From Candidatus Aenigmatarchaeota archaeon (lineage in GTDB: Archaea > Aenigmatarchaeota > Aenigmatarchaeia > QMZS01), in assembly GCA_030600555.1 (NCBI GenBank), contig JAUVLW010000008.1, positions 1 through 34,350 on the forward strand: a DNA stretch of 34,350 nt. The letters run 5' to 3'. Position numbers and translations under genes: made by a program. Below, one piece after another: positions 3,401-23,486 of this stretch (within the stretch, counting starts at the first letter, position 1; the number at the start of each line of letters is the position of its first letter). The notes under the pieces are model-generated. The model was not told the origin of the DNA. It saw nothing but the letters and a program-made list of their open reading frames with translations, and ran no database searches.

Positions 3401-6400
3401 ATGGGGAAAAGATTATTTGTTTTTATTCTTGCTATAGTTTCTGTATTAAGTTTGCCTTTCTTGTTTCTAAATTCAGCAAATTTAGTTCTTGGATTTTTGG
3501 GGGTTCAGGAAACTTTTGTTCTTGATTTTAACAATACGGTTTTTAATTATACTTTGACTAAATTTGGCGATTCAAATATGACTCAGGAGTTTGATTTTAA
3601 TGAAAGCGGGGGAAATCAAACTTATTATTTATTAATACCGAAAAATGCAACTGTGCAGAATATAAGTATGAATCTTACTGGTAAATTGACTACGATTTAT
3701 AAACAACAGGTCAGTATAAATGAAATTAGGGGAATCTCTATTGGCAATGTCACAATTGATTCCAATAATGAAATTTCTATTGGAACAAAAGAGACAGATG
3801 GCAAGGTAAAATTATTATCTGGAGAGAATGGTTCAGTAATGTGGAATGTAACTTTAGCTTCCAGTCAGATAATATATTCAACAGATATTGGAAATGTTAC
3901 TTCGGATTCTGGAGAGGAAATTGTTGTTGGTTCTGAAGATAATTATATTTATTTATTGGATTCTGATGGGCTGGAAATTTGGAAGAATGATACAAATTCT
4001 GACGTTAATTCAGTTAAAATAGCCGATGTTCATGTTGATGCTGGGAATGAAATTATTGCAGGTTCAAATAATAAGGTATTTTTGTTTAATTCAACAAACA
4101 ATTTGTTGTGGAATATCACTATCAATAATTTAAATCAATTGGCGATTGGCGATATAACTTCTGATTCTGGGGATGAAATTGTGGTTGGGTGCAGCGATGG
4201 TTGGATTTATGTATTAAATTCAACAGGAATAATTGTTGATAGTTTCACCATTACAGGAGAAATAAATACTTTGGATGTTGGAAATATTTCTTCTAGTTTA
4301 AGAGACGAAATAGTACTTGGCACTGGAAGCAGTAAAATAATTATATTGAATTCAACTGGAGCAGAGATTAAGAATTACACTGCCGGGGGTTCTATAAATA
4401 GTGTTAAAATTGGAGAACTTACTAGTGATTATCAAGGCAATGAAATAATTGCGGGTTCTACTGATAAGAAGGTATATATTTTTAATAATACTGGAGATTT
4501 AATAGCGGAGTTTCTTGCAGATAATGTGGTGTATACTGTAGCTATAGGTGATTTAAATAGTGATGCGGGGAATGAAGTTGCTGCAGGAGGAGCAGGAGGT
4601 TATGTTTATACATTCAATTTTGATTATTTCCCAACAAACCTCAGTATAGATATTGGAGGTGATTCAACAAAAGACTGGAATTGCACAGAAGAAAAATTAA
4701 GAAATTCTAAAATCGCAACAGGCGGAAATTTAGTATCAGCAATAAATAATTATTTAATAAATATTTGTTCACCTGATGCGGATAATAACTGTCAGGTTCC
4801 TTTGGTGTTTAATTCTATTTTTAAAGGAAAATTAAATATTTCAAATCTTAATGTCACTTATAGCTATAACACAACCAATATAATTTATCACAACGGAAGC
4901 GCAATTCCAAACTGGTCAAGGACAAACAATATTGAAATCAATGAAGAAGTTGGTTACGGCGTTTATGCGGTTAATTTTGAGGGAATTCCCGCGGAAAATA
5001 TTACTATTAATTATATTACTGTAAACCAAAGCGCAACAACTTGTGATTTTAATTTAAGTTCTTACAGCACTGCAACTGTAAATGGAAAAAAACTCTGTAA
5101 TATTTCTTCAAACCCAATTCATTTGATTGGAGGAGAACTAATTAATCCATCACTTCAATTATTTTTATGGGATAATACAATGCAGAATGCCACACCTTTA
5201 AGTATCTTCAATACCACAGAATATTATTCCACCAGTGATTTAGATGATTACAATAAATGGATAAATTTGACATTTAATGCAACAAACGGGACTTTTACAA
5301 ATGCAACAGCCTGGTGGTCTGTAAATGATTCTGAGATTGATGGTGAAGAATTTTTGAAATCTGGTGAATGCAATCTCACACCTGAAAATGAACAAAGCAA
5401 TTGTGATACTGCAAGTCCAACTTATACTCAAATAGACTGTTCAGGAGATATTTTCTATGTGTGCAAAGAAACTGTTGGGTCTGATATGTATTTTAAATGG
5501 AAACAACTAAGTTTATCTTCATCTAGGGAATATATAGCCGGGGGTTCTTATAATCTTAAACCCAATCTTACTAACCTGGATATTACGCCTTCTTCAGAAA
5601 TCTGGAGCGCTAATTTTACTTTTTCAGTTGATGTGTCTGATGTTGATAGCGATATAATTAATTTGACCCTTTGGGTTTTTGAAAATCAGACAGGAAACTG
5701 GACAAATAAAGGTGTGGCTAGCGTAAGCAATGGGAATATGGAATTTAATTTGACTTCAGATAAAAACTGGACAGGAACCAGCAGATTTTTATTTGAGTAT
5801 TTTGATTGCAACCAAAGCGATCTTTCCCAGAAATTCCATAGCGCGACCAATACAACAATCACAAATTTTAATGTTCTTAAGCATGATATTTCTGTAGTTT
5901 ATAACGAATCCCTTGGATGTTCAGGGAATGATTCACTTGTTTTTAGGAATGATTCCTTAGTTCTTTCTGTTTTTGTTAATGACACGAATTCTTCAGATGA
6001 TGTCGAAGGAGCAAATTGTTCTTTATGGGTTGGGGGTGTTTTTGCAAATTATACGCAATCAAACGCCACGGGATTCTGCAATTTTAATTTTACCCCAGAC
6101 CAGAGTTTTAATTTAGGACATTCAAATTGGAAAATAGGCATATTCAATGATGCTCATTATACTGAAGGAAATTCAACAGAACTAAATATTACGATAAGGG
6201 GAAGCATTCACCCTGAAATAACAAACCCGGTTAATTTTTCTTTTTACAAAAATGAACCCACAACTTTTCATGCAGGATTATTAAATTTGTATGGGCTGCC
6301 TGTAAATGAAGCTGGTTATAATTGTTCTTTTTATATGGATAATACTTCAACCCCTATTGGAAATAGCTCAACAAATACTTCAGGAGGATGTTCTTTGGAT

Positions 6401-9400
6401 TATAATAATTCTGGCAGTTTTGAGGTTGGACAAAGAACTTTGATAGTAGTGATTAATAAAACCGGAGTGGATAATTATTATAATATCTCTGACAACCAAA
6501 CCAACAGATCAGTATTATTGCTAGGAAGGTTAAATTTAACAATCTTGTCGCCTTTAGAAAGCGGGAGTTATTATAAAGGACAAAATTTAAGTATCAATTC
6601 TTCAGTGGAAGATAATTGCGGTCAAAGTGTTGATGGCGCAAATGTGAACTGGCATCTTGTAAATAAATACAATCTCAATGTTACTATTGAAGACACTTCG
6701 GGGATAAACCGAACAAATTATCCAATAATCTTAAATGGAAGTTTTTTTGCGGACAGCGATTTTGAATTTATTGACTGGAAATTAAATAATACTTATCTTC
6801 AGATGGAGGGAGCAACAATATCTTTTTCAATATATCCATGGACTTCAGCAGGAAAACTGGAATTAAATAATAGTCGTGTGTATATGGATAATTTGACTGA
6901 ACTTGTATTTTTAATAAACCTAACTGCAAATACCAGCAAAGTATTGGAGATAAATTTAAAAGACAGCAATCCCTCAATGAATGATGTGGAATATAATATT
7001 CTGAATGCGGGTTTTGATTCAGGTGATTTCTCTTTGTGGGATGTTTCCTTATCTGGTGATTGCACTGCAAAGGTTTCTCTTGAAAATGAAACCTATTTTG
7101 CGGATTTATCTGCGGACCATAATTCTTTAGAAGTGTTTCAGTATCTTTTAAATATCACAAAGACAGATAAAATAAATATAAGTTACAAAGCTTGGGGAGA
7201 ATTTTATCTAAGTGAATCTTTTGTAGGAAATTTTAGTTTAAAAATAGGTAATGTTGTTTGTGATTTAACTCCTTGGAATCATCCTTATGGACCTTATGTT
7301 CCTTCGGAGCAACCTTGGGATGTAGTAACCTGCGAAGATTCTTCATTTTCTTCGGCTGAAAATATTTCCATTTTTCTTAGAGATGATGGTGATGGAGGCA
7401 CTCCCGCATCAAAAACTTATGCCCAAATAAATTATATCTGCTTTGTTGATGATGCTGGGGCTTGCGTGGATTTTCATTCAGGAGTTCAAACACAATTAAA
7501 TTTAACTCACAGAAAAGAAATCAGCAGCAATATAAATGACACTTATTTGTTGGAAGGAACAGAAGATGTTGGTAGAAGGAAAATAATTGCTGAGGCGGAA
7601 AAACTGTATTATGATTCTGATTTGGAAATAAGATATTTTAATTTAACTGGATTCTCTTATGTGAAAAATCTGACAATAAATTCTGAGTTCTGCACTCTTA
7701 ATTCAACCACAGGCATTTGGCAGTATAGGTGCATGGTAAACGCAAGTTTAGCTTTGCAGTGCGTGGTGGCGGATAATTATACATCCAGCGGAATTGTTGA
7801 TTATTCTGTTGATTTTTATAATTCAACTCCTTTGTTTATAGGAAACAACACAACAAATTCTCAGGGAATGGCTATTAAGGAATCGCAGATATATGGAGAT
7901 GGCACATACCGTTTTTCCTGCAATATAACCGACCAATCAGATATTTTTTATAATGCTACAGGAACTTCTGGCAGGTTGGTTGAGGCTACTGTATTAGGCA
8001 CCAATACCACTGCGGAATTAAATATAACCCCCGAATATCTCGAGGCATTAAATATTACCATAATCCACAATGTTACGCAAAATATGACTTTTGTTTTGAT
8101 AAATAATGGGTCCGGAGACATGTATGATCCAGTTATAAATATTTCTTCTATTTCCGGGGTATATCTCCCAGAACTGGTTTGCGACCCAATCCAAATTGGA
8201 GACAATTGCACCAAGTTGTTTAATATCACCATAACTTCAGAAGCGGATGTTGGAAATCGCACAATTTGGTTTAATATTACCTGGCAAAACGGGGATGCTA
8301 CTTATGATACTGTTAATAAAAATATAACCATTTTTATTGAATCAAACCCACAACTTGAATTTGTTGAAGATAATCTTTCTCTTTCTGTTCCAATTACTTC
8401 AGACAGAACAACAAATTTCACGATATTGAATTACGGAAATGTAAATTTAACAAATGTGATTATAAACCTGACTGGAGAAAATTCATCAACTTTTATAGAT
8501 TTGACAACTTTCAGCAACAATACTTTTAATTTAGAGCTCGGCGGAGAAGAAACAATATTTATGACAGTAAATGCTTCAACCCTGGATACTTCATGGATAG
8601 GTTCTTATGATTTAAATATTACTTTAAATACCAGTGATTGCTCTGATTGTTTAAGAAGATTGCCTTTTACTTTGGAGATAACCCCTCTTGATTGGGATGC
8701 AACACCATTAATATTGAATAAAACCGTTGGTCTAAAAGCAGAGGTAAATAAATTGGGTGAAGTGGTGATTGATAATATAAAAGATGAAAATTTTGATTTT
8801 AATTTATCAATTACCCGTAATTCAGGAACCACCACAGAATATTTAACTCTGAATGATACTCACAAGGCAACACAGATTTTGATTACAGTAACAAATAACA
8901 CAGAAAGGATTATTGAAGTATTTTATAATACCAGTGTTGACCCAGATGCCATAGGAACCTATAATTATACTCTTAAAGTTGAGAATCTGGATTCGGGTGT
9001 GCCTGAATTTATAAATATTTCAATATTTTTTGAAATAATAAATTTTACGGTAGATATCATCAGCCCAAATGGGACATTCCCTGTTGGAAATATTGAAATA
9101 AACGATACTTTGGAAATTAATGTAACTGCTTTGTCCGGAAGCGATTCTGTGGGTGAGAATATGAGTTGGATTGTTTTAGTTGGGGGAGAATATTGTCCTA
9201 TCATCAATTATTCATATCATTCAGGCAACGAATTGTGGAATATTAATTGCACAGCCCCAAATATTACAAATAATATCCTTAGGAATGATTTGGAGGTTAC
9301 TGGAACTTATACCGTGAATAATATTGTTTTATCAGATTTAGAAGAAGATTCAATTATTTATAAGGATTCCATTTCCCCATGGTTTTCAAACATAACCGCA

Positions 9401-12310
9401 GATTTTATTAACAATAATACTTATACGCAGGATTATATAATTTTTGAAGTAAATATAACCGACAACAAAAATATAAGTTCTGTGAGCGCTAAAGTAACCC
9501 ACACCAACACCGGAGAATACTGGAATTTAAATTCTAATAATTATTCGGAAACTTATTTATCAGCTGAAAATGAATTTGATAAGAGAAATTTTGTTTTTAA
9601 TTTTTCAAGACCGGAGTATACCGGAGATTATGATATAATTGTTTATGCAAATGATACGACTATAGGTAATGCTGAGAGCAATAAGACAGGATGGTTTGAT
9701 ATTTATATTCCGGTGCAGGTCAGCGGAAATTTAACAGATCCGGATGGAACCCCTATAGACGCAAACTTTACTTTTTATAGGGAAGGGTCTGATTTGGATG
9801 AAGCTTACAAAATGCACGAAAATACCACAGAATCCAGCGAGATTTATAACTGGACATTGCACAAGAGAAAGTATGATATAAAAATTGATATGTTTGGTCA
9901 GGAAATAGTATTGCATGATGCGGATTTTAATAATTCCAATAACCTAAATAATCCTTTTAAGTTTGATTATTATTCAAACCATACCTGCACTCATTTAACT
10001 TCTGAGGATTTAGCCACAGCGCGTTATCCTATTATTGGAATTGTTATTGATACAAATTTAACAGATTCCGCGGAATTTGAAATTGATTTTGAGGCTGCGT
10101 TGCAAAATGCTTTAAATTCAGGGTTTAGTATTCAGAGAGATAATCTTGAGGTTATTGCTTGCCATAACTGGAGTTATTCAAGTCAGACCTGTGATTCTTC
10201 ATTTGAATATGTAAATAGATCAATAGCTCCCGAAGGCAATATTATTAGTTTTTCTGTTTCTGATTTGTCGGCTTTTTTTGTTGCGGAGGCTTGTTATTCT
10301 TCAGGTAATGACTTGATAGATTGCAGCGGTTATGGTGACCCTCCAATTATCCCTCCAAGCCCAAGTTCACCTAGCGGAAGCACTGGCGGAAGCACCACCG
10401 TGGATTTGGAACTTTCAACTTGCGGAGATGGTGTTTGCGAAGTTGGAGAGAATTATCAGAACTGTCCGCAGGATTGTCCTTTGGACGATTTCCCTTTAAT
10501 TGTGGACACAAATCTTGCAAATGTAAGAATATTTCAGGGAGATTCAAGAACCTATCAGCTTTCTTTGAAGAGCAGAATGAGTGGAGATGTTGATGTTGGT
10601 TTGGTTGTTACAGGCACTCTAAAGGAATTATTGAGTTTAAGTTCTACAAGGAAAGTCATACAACCCGGAGACACAGAAGAATTGGATTTATATCTTACAA
10701 TCCCTATGAATCAGAGCACTGGGATATATTCAGGAAATATTGAGCTTAGGGCAGGAGCGCAGGCAAAGAATATCCCCATTTCAATAACAGTTCTTGAAAA
10801 AGCAACAGCAGTATTTTCTGTTGAACTGGAACTTGCAACAAAGGAAATAAACCCAGGGGATAATCTTGAATTCTTAGTTAAGTTGATTAATCTTGGGGAA
10901 AAGAAGACCCTGCCAATAAATTTAACTTATATAATAAAAGAGCAGAAAACAGGAAAAATAATTAGGGAGGTAAATACAAGTGTTGTTCTTGAAACCACAA
11001 AGATTCTAAGGGAGAGCATATCATTAAATATTACTGAAAAAGGCTACTATAATTTAGAAGTTTGGGCAATATATTATGATAGAGGGATTATGGATGTAGA
11101 AACATTTGAAGTGGTCAGACCTTTGTTTGAAACACCCTGGATGGTTGGGCTAATTTTAATTGCGTTATTGATGGGTATAACCGTAGGCGGGACTTATATA
11201 TGGCGTTATTATATTATCTGGAAAAAAGAAAAGGAAAAAGAAGAAAGATATTTATATCCTTTAGATTATAGAAAAGTTCCAAGGGAGGGATTTAAAATTG
11301 GTAAATTTGCTGGAACTAATAATTATTGTTATTATGACCCTAAGGATTTGACAACCCATTTAATATCCGCTGGGGCGACTGGAGCAGGGAAATCTGTATC
11401 CGCTTCAGTGATTGCTGAAGAAGCTCTTGACAAAAATGTTCCTGTAATTGTTTTTGACCCAACAGCCCAATGGACTGGTTTTGTGAAAGCGTGCAAAGAC
11501 ACAAATCTTACCAGAAGATATAAGGAATTTGATATGAGTGATTTTGATATAAAATCTTATCCAGGATTAATTTATGATGTTGAAAAACCCGACTTTGAAT
11601 TAAAAATAAAAGAATTTATAAATCCCGGAGAAATAACAATATTTTGTTTGAATAAATTAAAACCCGGAGAATATGATAAAGCCGTTGATCACATTATTAA
11701 ATCCATCTTCGGAGAGACCTGGGAAGAATCCTCTGATTTAAAACTATTGCTTGTTTTTGATGAAGTTCACAGGTTACTTGAAAAATATGGTGGGACTGGA
11801 GGTTATGTTGCTCTTGAAAAAGCAGCAAGGGAATTCAGGAAATGGGGCATTGGAATTATAATGTGTTCTCAGGTATTGGCGGACTTTAAATCAGCAATAT
11901 CCGGTAATGTTCTTACAGAGATTCAATTAAATACAAAATCTTTAGTGGATATAGAAAAAGTAAAGACAAAATATGGAGAGCAATATTCACAGAGGATTAC
12001 TAGGATGGGTGTTGGCGCAGGATTAATGCAGTATCCAAAATATAACGATGGTAAACCTTTCTTTGTTGAGTTTAGACCAACAAAGCACGATCCGCATAAA
12101 ATTACTGAAGCTGAGTTGAGTTTATATAAAACCAATATCGAGAAATTAAAACTCATTGAATCCAAGATAAAGGGTTTGAAAGAACGCAAGATATACACAG
12201 AGGATTATGAACTTGATTTTAAACTTGCTATGAAAAAACTTAAGACCGGAAATTTCAGGATGGTTGAAATCTATATAACTTCTCTTGAGAAATCGCTTGA
12301 GAAAGTCTGA
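3401..12310 (+). CDS. Giant surface protein fused to a cytoplasmic HerA/VirB4-like ATPase
   Basis: 2969 residues in one unbroken frame. Residues 1-30 form a signal/anchor (RLFVFILAIVSVLSLPFLFL). Residues about 105-410 hold seven repeats of the type IGDITSDSGDEIVVG..D..IYVLNSTG, a seven-bladed FG-GAP/PQQ-like propeller. About 1900 residues of Asn/Thr-rich, sequon-dense Ig-like sequence follow, then a Pro/Ser/Gly linker and a Cys-rich motif CGDGVCEVGENYQNCPQDC starting at C2341. One membrane helix lies at about 2581-2602 (MVGLILIALLMGITVGGTYIW). The cytoplasmic part (about 2610-2969) is a HerA/DUF87-type P-loop ATPase: Walker A GATGAGKS at 2658-2665, Walker B LLLVFDEVH with D2787/E2788, and a motor motif IIMCSQVLADFKSAISGN around Q2824. 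HerA/VirB4/FtsK relatives move DNA or protein through membranes. Here the motor is covalently joined to an extracellular giant. Substrate unknown. The coiled-coil gene follows after 2 bases. Confidence 0.88.
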   Translation: MGKRLFVFILAIVSVLSLPFLFLNSANLVLGFLGVQETFVLDFNNTVFNYTLTKFGDSNMTQEFDFNESGGNQTYYLLIPKNATVQNISMNLTGKLTTIYKQQVSINEIRGISIGNVTIDSNNEISIGTKETDGKVKLLSGENGSVMWNVTLASSQIIYSTDIGNVTSDSGEEIVVGSEDNYIYLLDSDGLEIWKNDTNSDVNSVKIADVHVDAGNEIIAGSNNKVFLFNSTNNLLWNITINNLNQLAIGDITSDSGDEIVVGCSDGWIYVLNSTGIIVDSFTITGEINTLDVGNISSSLRDEIVLGTGSSKIIILNSTGAEIKNYTAGGSINSVKIGELTSDYQGNEIIAGSTDKKVYIFNNTGDLIAEFLADNVVYTVAIGDLNSDAGNEVAAGGAGGYVYTFNFDYFPTNLSIDIGGDSTKDWNCTEEKLRNSKIATGGNLVSAINNYLINICSPDADNNCQVPLVFNSIFKGKLNISNLNVTYSYNTTNIIYHNGSAIPNWSRTNNIEINEEVGYGVYAVNFEGIPAENITINYITVNQSATTCDFNLSSYSTATVNGKKLCNISSNPIHLIGGELINPSLQLFLWDNTMQNATPLSIFNTTEYYSTSDLDDYNKWINLTFNATNGTFTNATAWWSVNDSEIDGEEFLKSGECNLTPENEQSNCDTASPTYTQIDCSGDIFYVCKETVGSDMYFKWKQLSLSSSREYIAGGSYNLKPNLTNLDITPSSEIWSANFTFSVDVSDVDSDIINLTLWVFENQTGNWTNKGVASVSNGNMEFNLTSDKNWTGTSRFLFEYFDCNQSDLSQKFHSATNTTITNFNVLKHDISVVYNESLGCSGNDSLVFRNDSLVLSVFVNDTNSSDDVEGANCSLWVGGVFANYTQSNATGFCNFNFTPDQSFNLGHSNWKIGIFNDAHYTEGNSTELNITIRGSIHPEITNPVNFSFYKNEPTTFHAGLLNLYGLPVNEAGYNCSFYMDNTSTPIGNSSTNTSGGCSLDYNNSGSFEVGQRTLIVVINKTGVDNYYNISDNQTNRSVLLLGRLNLTILSPLESGSYYKGQNLSINSSVEDNCGQSVDGANVNWHLVNKYNLNVTIEDTSGINRTNYPIILNGSFFADSDFEFIDWKLNNTYLQMEGATISFSIYPWTSAGKLELNNSRVYMDNLTELVFLINLTANTSKVLEINLKDSNPSMNDVEYNILNAGFDSGDFSLWDVSLSGDCTAKVSLENETYFADLSADHNSLEVFQYLLNITKTDKINISYKAWGEFYLSESFVGNFSLKIGNVVCDLTPWNHPYGPYVPSEQPWDVVTCEDSSFSSAENISIFLRDDGDGGTPASKTYAQINYICFVDDAGACVDFHSGVQTQLNLTHRKEISSNINDTYLLEGTEDVGRRKIIAEAEKLYYDSDLEIRYFNLTGFSYVKNLTINSEFCTLNSTTGIWQYRCMVNASLALQCVVADNYTSSGIVDYSVDFYNSTPLFIGNNTTNSQGMAIKESQIYGDGTYRFSCNITDQSDIFYNATGTSGRLVEATVLGTNTTAELNITPEYLEALNITIIHNVTQNMTFVLINNGSGDMYDPVINISSISGVYLPELVCDPIQIGDNCTKLFNITITSEADVGNRTIWFNITWQNGDATYDTVNKNITIFIESNPQLEFVEDNLSLSVPITSDRTTNFTILNYGNVNLTNVIINLTGENSSTFIDLTTFSNNTFNLELGGEETIFMTVNASTLDTSWIGSYDLNITLNTSDCSDCLRRLPFTLEITPLDWDATPLILNKTVGLKAEVNKLGEVVIDNIKDENFDFNLSITRNSGTTTEYLTLNDTHKATQILITVTNNTERIIEVFYNTSVDPDAIGTYNYTLKVENLDSGVPEFINISIFFEIINFTVDIISPNGTFPVGNIEINDTLEINVTALSGSDSVGENMSWIVLVGGEYCPIINYSYHSGNELWNINCTAPNITNNILRNDLEVTGTYTVNNIVLSDLEEDSIIYKDSISPWFSNITADFINNNTYTQDYIIFEVNITDNKNISSVSAKVTHTNTGEYWNLNSNNYSETYLSAENEFDKRNFVFNFSRPEYTGDYDIIVYANDTTIGNAESNKTGWFDIYIPVQVSGNLTDPDGTPIDANFTFYREGSDLDEAYKMHENTTESSEIYNWTLHKRKYDIKIDMFGQEIVLHDADFNNSNNLNNPFKFDYYSNHTCTHLTSEDLATARYPIIGIVIDTNLTDSAEFEIDFEAALQNALNSGFSIQRDNLEVIACHNWSYSSQTCDSSFEYVNRSIAPEGNIISFSVSDLSAFFVAEACYSSGNDLIDCSGYGDPPIIPPSPSSPSGSTGGSTTVDLELSTCGDGVCEVGENYQNCPQDCPLDDFPLIVDTNLANVRIFQGDSRTYQLSLKSRMSGDVDVGLVVTGTLKELLSLSSTRKVIQPGDTEELDLYLTIPMNQSTGIYSGNIELRAGAQAKNIPISITVLEKATAVFSVELELATKEINPGDNLEFLVKLINLGEKKTLPINLTYIIKEQKTGKIIREVNTSVVLETTKILRESISLNITEKGYYNLEVWAIYYDRGIMDVETFEVVRPLFETPWMVGLILIALLMGITVGGTYIWRYYIIWKKEKEKEERYLYPLDYRKVPREGFKIGKFAGTNNYCYYDPKDLTTHLISAGATGAGKSVSASVIAEEALDKNVPVIVFDPTAQWTGFVKACKDTNLTRRYKEFDMSDFDIKSYPGLIYDVEKPDFELKIKEFINPGEITIFCLNKLKPGEYDKAVDHIIKSIFGETWEESSDLKLLLVFDEVHRLLEKYGGTGGYVALEKAAREFRKWGIGIIMCSQVLADFKSAISGNVLTEIQLNTKSLVDIEKVKTKYGEQYSQRITRMGVGAGLMQYPKYNDGKPFFVEFRPTKHDPHKITEAELSLYKTNIEKLKLIESKIKGLKERKIYTEDYELDFKLAMKKLKTGNFRMVEIYITSLEKSLEKV

Positions 12311-23072: not shown

Positions 23073-23101
23073 AAATTTAAATTTTAGGGCCGAGAGGGGG
23101 A

Positions 23102-23160
23102 TTTTCATAAACCATTTTGGGGTGCAGACCTTTTTAGTCTATTGCACCGAAAAGGGTTGC
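23102..23160 (-). other. tRNA-His intron 3, 59 nt, T-loop position 59/60
   Basis: Outer helix GGGGG/CCCCC, bulge AAT, central helix TTCA/TGAA, bulge AAG, inner helix AACC/GGTT, TTTT/AAAA, GGTGCA/TGCACC and GAC/GTC. Cutting AA^G and AA^T gives T loop TTCAAAT. 44 of its 59 bases are identical to blocks in intron 2. Confidence 0.87.
23132..23160 (-). repeat. 29-nt block of intron 3, copy of 23255-23283
   Basis: Second copy of the intron 5' block. See the repeat at 23255-23283. Confidence 0.95.
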
Positions 23161-23191
23161 TTTGAACCCCCCCTAAGAGATTTCTATGCAG

Positions 23192-23206
23192 TTTTGGGGT
23201 GCAGAC
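23192..23206 (-). repeat. 15-nt 3' block of intron 2, repeated in intron 3 (23115-23129)
   Basis: GTCTGCACCCCAAAA on the minus strand, identical at 23192-23206 and 23115-23129. It pairs with part of the 29-nt block (GGTGCA/TGCACC), so a whole hairpin is shared between the two introns. Confidence 0.95.
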
Positions 23207-23254
23207 ATCTTTCTTTTTGCTTCACAAAAAGATGCATCATCCAAAGGATGAATG

Positions 23255-23283
23255 TTTTAGTCTATTGCACCGAAAAGGGTTGC
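23255..23283 (-). repeat. 29-nt block of intron 2, repeated exactly in intron 3 (23132-23160)
   Basis: Identical over all 29 bases to 23132-23160. On the minus strand it begins GCAACCCTTTTCGGTGC and ends GACTAAAA. It starts at intron base 2 in intron 2 and base 1 in intron 3. Confidence 0.95.
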
Positions 23284-23304
23284 GCCACAGTCTCTCATGC
23301 TACC

Positions 23305-23421
23305 TTATAGAGCCAAGTTTTGTTATTTCTCCCCTTTTAAGGGCTTCCTTCATTTGCTACGCAAATGTGGCACCGTTTTTCTTTGAAAAACGAGTGTTTC
23401 TTTTGAAAGAAAGAAGGGCTT
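23305..23421 (-). other. tRNA-His intron 1, 117 nt, D-loop position 17/18
   Basis: Central helix GTAG/CTAT, bulges CTA and AAG, inner helix AGCC/GGCT. Cutting CT^A and AA^G restores the D loop AGCTGGTA. The intron carries internal hairpins CGTTTTTC/GAAAAACG and CATTTGC/GCAAATG. Its outer helix is weak. Confidence 0.82.
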
Positions 23422-23486
23422 AGCTACACCATCCCGGCCATAAAAGATATTTAAATTATTTTATTTTAAGATAAATTTCATTTTAT

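Follow-up and report, generated by a model that had tools for sequence, protein, structure and literature searches.

The window, by which we mean the whole 34,350-nt stretch of the Candidatus Aenigmatarchaeota archaeon contig JAUVLW010000008.1 that was analysed, carries a tRNA-His(GTG) gene on its minus strand, from 23439 to 23088, whose four exons (18, 20, 21 and 14 nt) together make up a 73-nt tRNA-His(GTG). This gene is broken by three introns, a structure that is near certain. Its parts, with exons delimited by the parser described below and by ARAGORN on the spliced form, and the second tRNA gene of the window are:

23422..23439, minus strand: exon 1, G-1 to U17
23305..23421, minus strand: intron 1, 117 nt, D-loop 17/18 (central helix GTAG/CTAT, intron helix AGCC/GGCT)
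23285..23304, minus strand: exon 2, G18 to G37, with anticodon GTG
23182..23284, minus strand: intron 2, 103 nt, canonical 37/38 (central helix CTGT/ATAG)
23161..23181, minus strand: exon 3, A38 to A59
23102..23160, minus strand: intron 3, 59 nt, T-loop 59/60 (central helix TTCA/TGAA; the outer helix is the T-stem)
23088..23101, minus strand: exon 4, U60 to C73
21330..21521, minus strand: tRNA-Arg(TCG) (half-tRNA model match; parser score 38.0)

Once the introns are removed, the mature sequence (GGCCGGGATGGTGTAGCTGGTAGCATGAGAGACTGTGGATCTCTTAGGGGGGGTTCAAATCCCCCTCTCGGCC) forms a cloverleaf with the invariant bases and a single isotype, and ARAGORN reports the spliced 73-mer as tRNA-His(gtg). The marks of tRNA-His identity that an earlier note on this DNA had pointed out, an encoded G-1 opposite C73 and the anticodon GTG, are present in the sequence, and its assignment of the gene to tRNA-His is borne out by ARAGORN, by the parser and by orthologues. 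The same note had placed introns of 117, 103 and 59 nt at 17/18, 37/38 and 59/60, each boundary with a 4-bp central helix and 3-nt bulges. Identical boundaries were returned as the top parse of the locus by a custom parser that enumerates four stems (acceptor, D, anticodon and T) and accepts optional BHB introns in the three loops; its score was 37.1, against a highest score of 27.8 among 400 dinucleotide shuffles and 30.3 for the best unrelated parse in a scan of the window that took in the complete plus strand and roughly half of the minus strand. A BHB with four of four central pairs and 3-nt bulges was found at all three junctions, the bulges being CUA and AAG at the D-loop junction (GTAG/CTAT), GGC and AAA at 37/38 (CUGU/AUAG) and AAG and AAU at 59/60 (TTCA/TGAA). 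The central helix at the D-loop junction is built on G12-U13-A14-G15 and thus competes with the D-stem; because it takes two D-stem bases, and the outer exon helix is absent, this BHB is a relaxed one. No group I or group II catalytic intron was matched by Rfam within the window. The strand had been absent from the earlier note, and neither the interruption of the whole tRNA set nor the kinship of introns 2 and 3, both described below, was visible to its reader.

Processing by EndA and a ligase is the established route of archaeal tRNA splicing, and the best evidence for cleavage of relaxed BHBs comes from EndA enzymes of heteromeric or three-unit build. The genome of the window encodes one candidate for the first step:

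C30:30794-31066: EndA, splicing endonuclease (PF01974 and PF02778; catalytic Y/H/K aligned)

This is the single catalytic-type gene found, and a Pfam search returned no second EndA subunit, which weighs against the pathway proposed below. The predicted protein contains a lysine-rich loop, GVKLKRGPKS, that is also present in N. equitans EndA and absent from M. jannaschii EndA in our alignment. Lineage-specific, lysine-bearing EndA loops have been linked to relaxed substrates (PMC12397907, PMC4033280), and the loop seen here may be equivalent to them. As a marker of the intron-rich family it had to be rejected, since all Aenigmatarchaeota aligned possess it; its presence in intron-poor relatives suggests that the loop may permit introns without driving their expansion. 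In the pathway that we propose, EndA would cut the primary transcript at all six junctions, and an RtcB-type ligase would seal the exons into the 73-nt tRNA.

The interruption of tRNA-His is part of a genome-wide state. The genome (G000) amounts to 815 kb in 34 contigs and is 82% complete, and 32 tRNA genes were found in it with a model (R1) built on the D and anticodon arms plus an intron motif search. All 32 are interrupted, 31 having been parsed by script and tRNA-Ile(TAT) by eye. Together they hold 62 introns, 16 of them in D-loops, 15 in anticodon loops and 31 in T-loops, and eight genes have three introns each (His, Pro-TGG, Arg-TCT, Lys-TTT, Gln-TTG, Ser-TGA, Glu-CTC and Leu-CAA). The tRNA-Arg(TCG) gene of the window, which lies just upstream of the lysyl-tRNA synthetase (LysRS) gene, has a D-loop intron of 34 nt and a T-loop intron of 82 nt. 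The gene search was partly directed at intron motifs; an intact tRNA would be the easiest target for the Rfam tRNA model, and none was found. That model gave eight matches above its cut-off in this genome, none of them tRNA-His and none intact, compared with 27-40 in some relatives. An intact second tRNA-His gene, which the earlier note had named as something that would speak against its reading, was thus not found by the Rfam tRNA model in this 815-kb, 82%-complete genome. Since none of the tRNA genes found in this small genome is uninterrupted, its translation would hinge entirely on a single splicing enzyme. Standard finders miss nearly all such genes, as the eight Rfam matches illustrate; in the unspliced window neither ARAGORN nor the Rfam tRNA model found any tRNA, as expected. 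Consequently, annotation and tRNA-based estimates of completeness are misleading for genomes of this kind. A shortened second tRNA-Val(CAC) (L108, G000:C22:3703-3797) stands beside the full gene and is an apparent pseudogene, most of its middle having been lost.

The class I lysyl-tRNA synthetase that adjoins tRNA genes in the window is 89-90% identical to those of three Candidatus Aenigmatarchaeota MAGs, and in a LysRS tree the window forms a fully supported group with G001, G004 and G006, with G007 next. Exons that splice to the same tRNA-His were recovered from six other genomes of the family. The mature tRNA-His of G001 is identical to that of the window at 72 of 72 compared positions and that of G004 at 71 of 72. 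A search with a 10-base motif, which gave mostly noise beyond the genus, found the orthologues of G001 and G005. The heavy interruption alone might suggest a pseudogene in decay or an error of assembly, yet this is extremely improbable in light of the identical mature sequence in G001, the same kind of gene in separate genomes of the family and the lack of any other tRNA-His among the genes found.

The introns of tRNA-His in G001 differ from those of the window in number and in sequence. The T-loop of tRNA-His is uninterrupted in G001 and G004 (TTCAAATCCC), whereas in the window the matching exon flanks enclose the 59-nt intron. Comparison of G000, G001, G004 and G006 revealed 12 tRNA sites that are filled by an intron in one genome and empty in another, and the empty sites carry no scar. 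The tRNA-Ile and initiator tRNA-Met genes, both interrupted in the window's genome, are intact in G004 according to ARAGORN. In the more distant family members G007, G009 and G010 the T-loop introns are not similar in sequence, and a newer intron may therefore also have taken the place of an older one at this site. Outside the family, G028 and G022 have a tRNA-His without introns, and others there have only some of these introns. We propose that a wave of intron gain hit every tRNA gene found in this genome and that turnover is ongoing between close species. The occurrence of recent intron gain next to near-identical empty sites is new. In the 37/38 intron of G001 (L035), the inner part resembles the reverse complement of the introns of G004 and G007 at that site, as if inverted.

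Introns 2 and 3 of tRNA-His are copies of a 46-nt unit that is found in many tRNA introns of the family, with the form GCAACCCTTT-N14-16-AAAAGGTCTGCACCCCAAAA and a length of 44-46 nt without inserts. The copies, and the inserts within the introns, are located as follows:

23347..23397 (approximate), minus strand: double-hairpin insert in intron 1 (ACACTCG..GAAGG), from alignment of the D-loop introns of G000 and G001
23192..23283, minus strand: copy of the unit in intron 2 (GCAACCC..CCCCAAAA), split by an insert, its 29 + 15 nt being the same as in intron 3
23207..23255, minus strand: double-hairpin insert in intron 2, from alignment with the T-loop intron of tRNA-Val(CAC)
23115..23160, minus strand: 46-nt unit in intron 3, its left end at the 5' splice site (model R2, C17:23115-23162, E 3.6e-14; the match takes in two exon bases, and the same copy was in the model's training set)

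Introns 2 and 3 agree without a mismatch over 29 nt and then over 15 nt, intron 2 being split between these stretches by the 49-nt double-hairpin insert, and the centre of the unit, which is variable among other copies, is the same letter by letter. The insert itself is identical, except for its last base, to the insert in the T-loop (59/60) intron of tRNA-Val(CAC). A related double-hairpin insert in intron 1 is mostly missing from the G001 orthologue. The intron at D-loop 17/18 measures 64 nt in G001 (L035), 48 nt in G004 (L131) and 18 nt in G005 (L042), and the 117-nt intron of the window appears to be a shorter intron, such as those of G001 and G005, to which a double-hairpin insert of ~50 nt has been added.

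The window's GTDB family comprises 11 genomes, and a covariance model of the unit matches 10 of them, as a rule more than once; among the 145 other genomes searched in the class it matches only three. Very similar introns occur at different tRNAs and sites, the 37/38 intron of tRNA-His resembling both the 59/60 intron of tRNA-Val(CAC) and the 59/60 intron of tRNA-His itself. In each of three pairs of recent copies, similarity breaks off before the 3' end of the intron, either at CCCCAAAA or no more than 8 nt from it, which suggests that the moving unit is shorter than the intron. This bears on the idea that whole introns spread, in that an excised intron would be reverse-spliced into another tRNA and then enter the genome by reverse transcription and recombination. 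The left end of the unit does coincide with the splice site in most tRNA copies, the empty sites are scarless, and large-scale transposition of introns between Thermoproteales tRNAs, by a mechanism unknown there, has been reported (PMC4090602). The shortfall of the shared stretch at the intron 3' end counts against whole-intron copying, as do copies outside tRNA genes and the reverse-oriented copies that occur in G009, and we find this route doubtful.

The copies outside tRNA genes lie at several kinds of site. In the window's genome, a copy lies after the stop codon of a thymidylate kinase-like gene (L111, C3:18819-18902; gene read by eye), and in G006 (contig C5) a 90-nt copy that follows a stop codon is nearly identical to an intron of the tRNA-Thr of that genome (L125, L126). 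Reverse-oriented copies are present at the start codons of genes that, by eye, resemble those for CDC48, glycyl-tRNA synthetase, IF5A, rpS3 (in G002) and an L40-type ribosomal protein. In G008, the unit starts precisely where a repeat ends within a CRISPR array of ten repeats (L150, L162; G008:C11, ~33.2-35.6 kb; repeat CAATCCTTATTTTACTGGACCTATCTCTAAAAC), where it heads one interspace of 119 nt. In the copies that we inspected, an exon or a gene usually abuts the left end of the unit. Copies with fixed ends are thus dispersed among unrelated sites, namely tRNA introns, the edges of start and stop codons and a CRISPR array, and this dispersal of a tRNA-intron unit outside tRNA genes is new. An adjacent repeat-like stretch of the G008 array contains a double-hairpin insert. 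Short toxin-antitoxin-like genes lie between repeats of 100-126 nt with a reverse-oriented unit in G010:C22 (L128) and G008:C13 (L130); for the repeated units of G010, an integron or cassette arrangement was also considered, and the adjoining short genes there are toxin-antitoxin-like by eye. Two viral contigs with the 19-nt core are phages and apparently match by chance, and the pattern matches L116, L119 and L122, which lie inside ORFs, also appear to be chance.

Because introns 2 and 3 copy a unit that is also present at sites other than tRNAs, the unit itself probably spreads. The leading interpretation, to which we give about an even chance, is that the unit is mobile. In one specific form, whose probability falls a little short of that mark, a mobile 46-nt mini-element whose ends are fixed (GCAACCCTTT..AAAAGGTCTGCACCCCAAAA) would insert itself at the edges of genes in Aenigmatarchaeota genomes and, within tRNA genes, be removed as a BHB intron, thus acting as an archaeal 'introner', while nested mobile double-hairpin inserts would enlarge the introns. 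Eukaryotic introners are short mobile units that create many introns, which are spliceosomal and lie in protein genes; the unit described here is likewise short and present in many introns, and differs in that these are protein-spliced BHB introns of tRNA genes. A mini-element moving at the DNA level would fit the observed dispersal. One candidate enzyme for such movement would be a Y1 transposase, the unit being a non-autonomous element of the IS200/IS605 type. The unit is short and hairpin-like, no target duplication was seen, and several left flanks read TTCA or similar by inspection. Nevertheless, Y1 transposase was not found in the unit-bearing genomes G000, G002, G004, G007 and G009, all of them incomplete except G009, and no convincing unit copy was present in the eight loci searched around Y1 transposase genes. 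With neither a Y1 transposase in these hosts nor, at the loci searched, an autonomous copy with matching ends, membership of this group is not supported and movement by such an enzyme is very unlikely.

The unit might instead be an immobile, conserved functional RNA under selection, such as a protein-binding hairpin or a guide, in which case likeness among copies would reflect constraint together with gene conversion between introns. The alignment of the unit has 27 of 48 columns invariant across genera around its variable centre, a hairpin with an internal loop is predicted, and intergenic copies adjoin start or stop codons in several lineages, all of which would suit such a role. Conversely, RNAalifold found compensatory changes at none of eight pairs, leaving the hairpin without evolutionary support, and even the variable centre is common to introns 2 and 3. 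Many tRNA introns have no unit, unit-bearing introns of one species can be missing from the orthologous site in a close relative, and one copy lies within a CRISPR array. Pairs of filled and empty sites were seen for tRNA sites and not for intergenic copies, and because they cover only the former we retain the functional RNA as a rival, albeit an unlikely one. The joint conclusion that this is a working tRNA-His gene with three BHB introns, putatively processed by EndA and RtcB, in a genome swept by a wave of intron gain, and that the 46-nt unit probably spreads, is in our judgment very likely.

Ever since large-scale transposition was described in Thermoproteales, the way in which archaeal tRNA introns move has been a standing question. 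Within a single genus, filled sites can here be set beside empty ones in tRNAs whose exons are nearly the same, one gene holds recent copies, and further copies lie outside tRNAs; the moving unit and its ends thereby become definable and testable. Multi-intron tRNA genes are described from Pyrobaculum and Thermofilum (Sugahara 2008 and Fujishima 2010, as cited in PMC8450103, PMC4033280 and PMC4090602), and these genes share with those described here as many as three BHB introns in a tRNA, intron sites both canonical and non-canonical (59/60 among them), and similar introns across tRNAs. Both hallmarks of Thermoproteales-type transposed introns, similar introns across tRNAs and sites and presence/absence at 12 sites, are found in our genomes. 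Pyrobaculum calidifontis, the record holder among the genomes assessed, has 71 introns in 46 genes, with at most three per gene (PMC8450103), compared with 62 in 32 here. The present case differs in its phylum, Aenigmatarchaeota, in that no intact tRNA was found, in that half of the introns (31 of 62) lie in T-loops and in that the unit also occurs outside tRNA genes.

The statement of the earlier note that multi-intron tRNAs are known mainly from Thermoproteales and a few DPANN lineages is slightly dated, in that it leaves out the Asgard archaea. According to a 2024 report, 92-95% of the tRNA genes are interrupted in three genomes of Atabeyarchaeia and Freyarchaeia, and over half are multi-intron (PMC11291895). 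The state is like that seen here, with most tRNA genes interrupted and multi-intron genes common, in an unrelated lineage; unlike here, neither a shared mobile unit nor empty sites in close species are reported in the portion consulted. In Caldiarchaeum, an intron of tRNA-Thr was gained by integration of a mobile element and varies between close genomes (PMC3293823). The association of intron gain with a mobile element and its variability recur here; that case involves one tRNA and a plasmid-type integrase, whereas ours involves a 46-nt unit in many tRNAs, with no integrase identified. A literature search, which reached few subscription journals, found no paper on tRNA introns in Aenigmatarchaeota. 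Multi-intron tRNAs and intron transposition are thus already known, and what is new is the lineage and the very high intron density.

Two other features of the window may be mentioned. The segment 26781-33220 holds a cluster of genes for mevalonate kinase, UbiX, an aconitase-X-like protein, UbiD and isopentenyl phosphate kinase, a set like that of the archaeal mevalonate pathway. On the plus strand, an ORF at 3401-12310 would encode a protein of 2969 amino acids with a beta-propeller near its N-terminus and a HerA-like ATPase stretch near its C-terminus.
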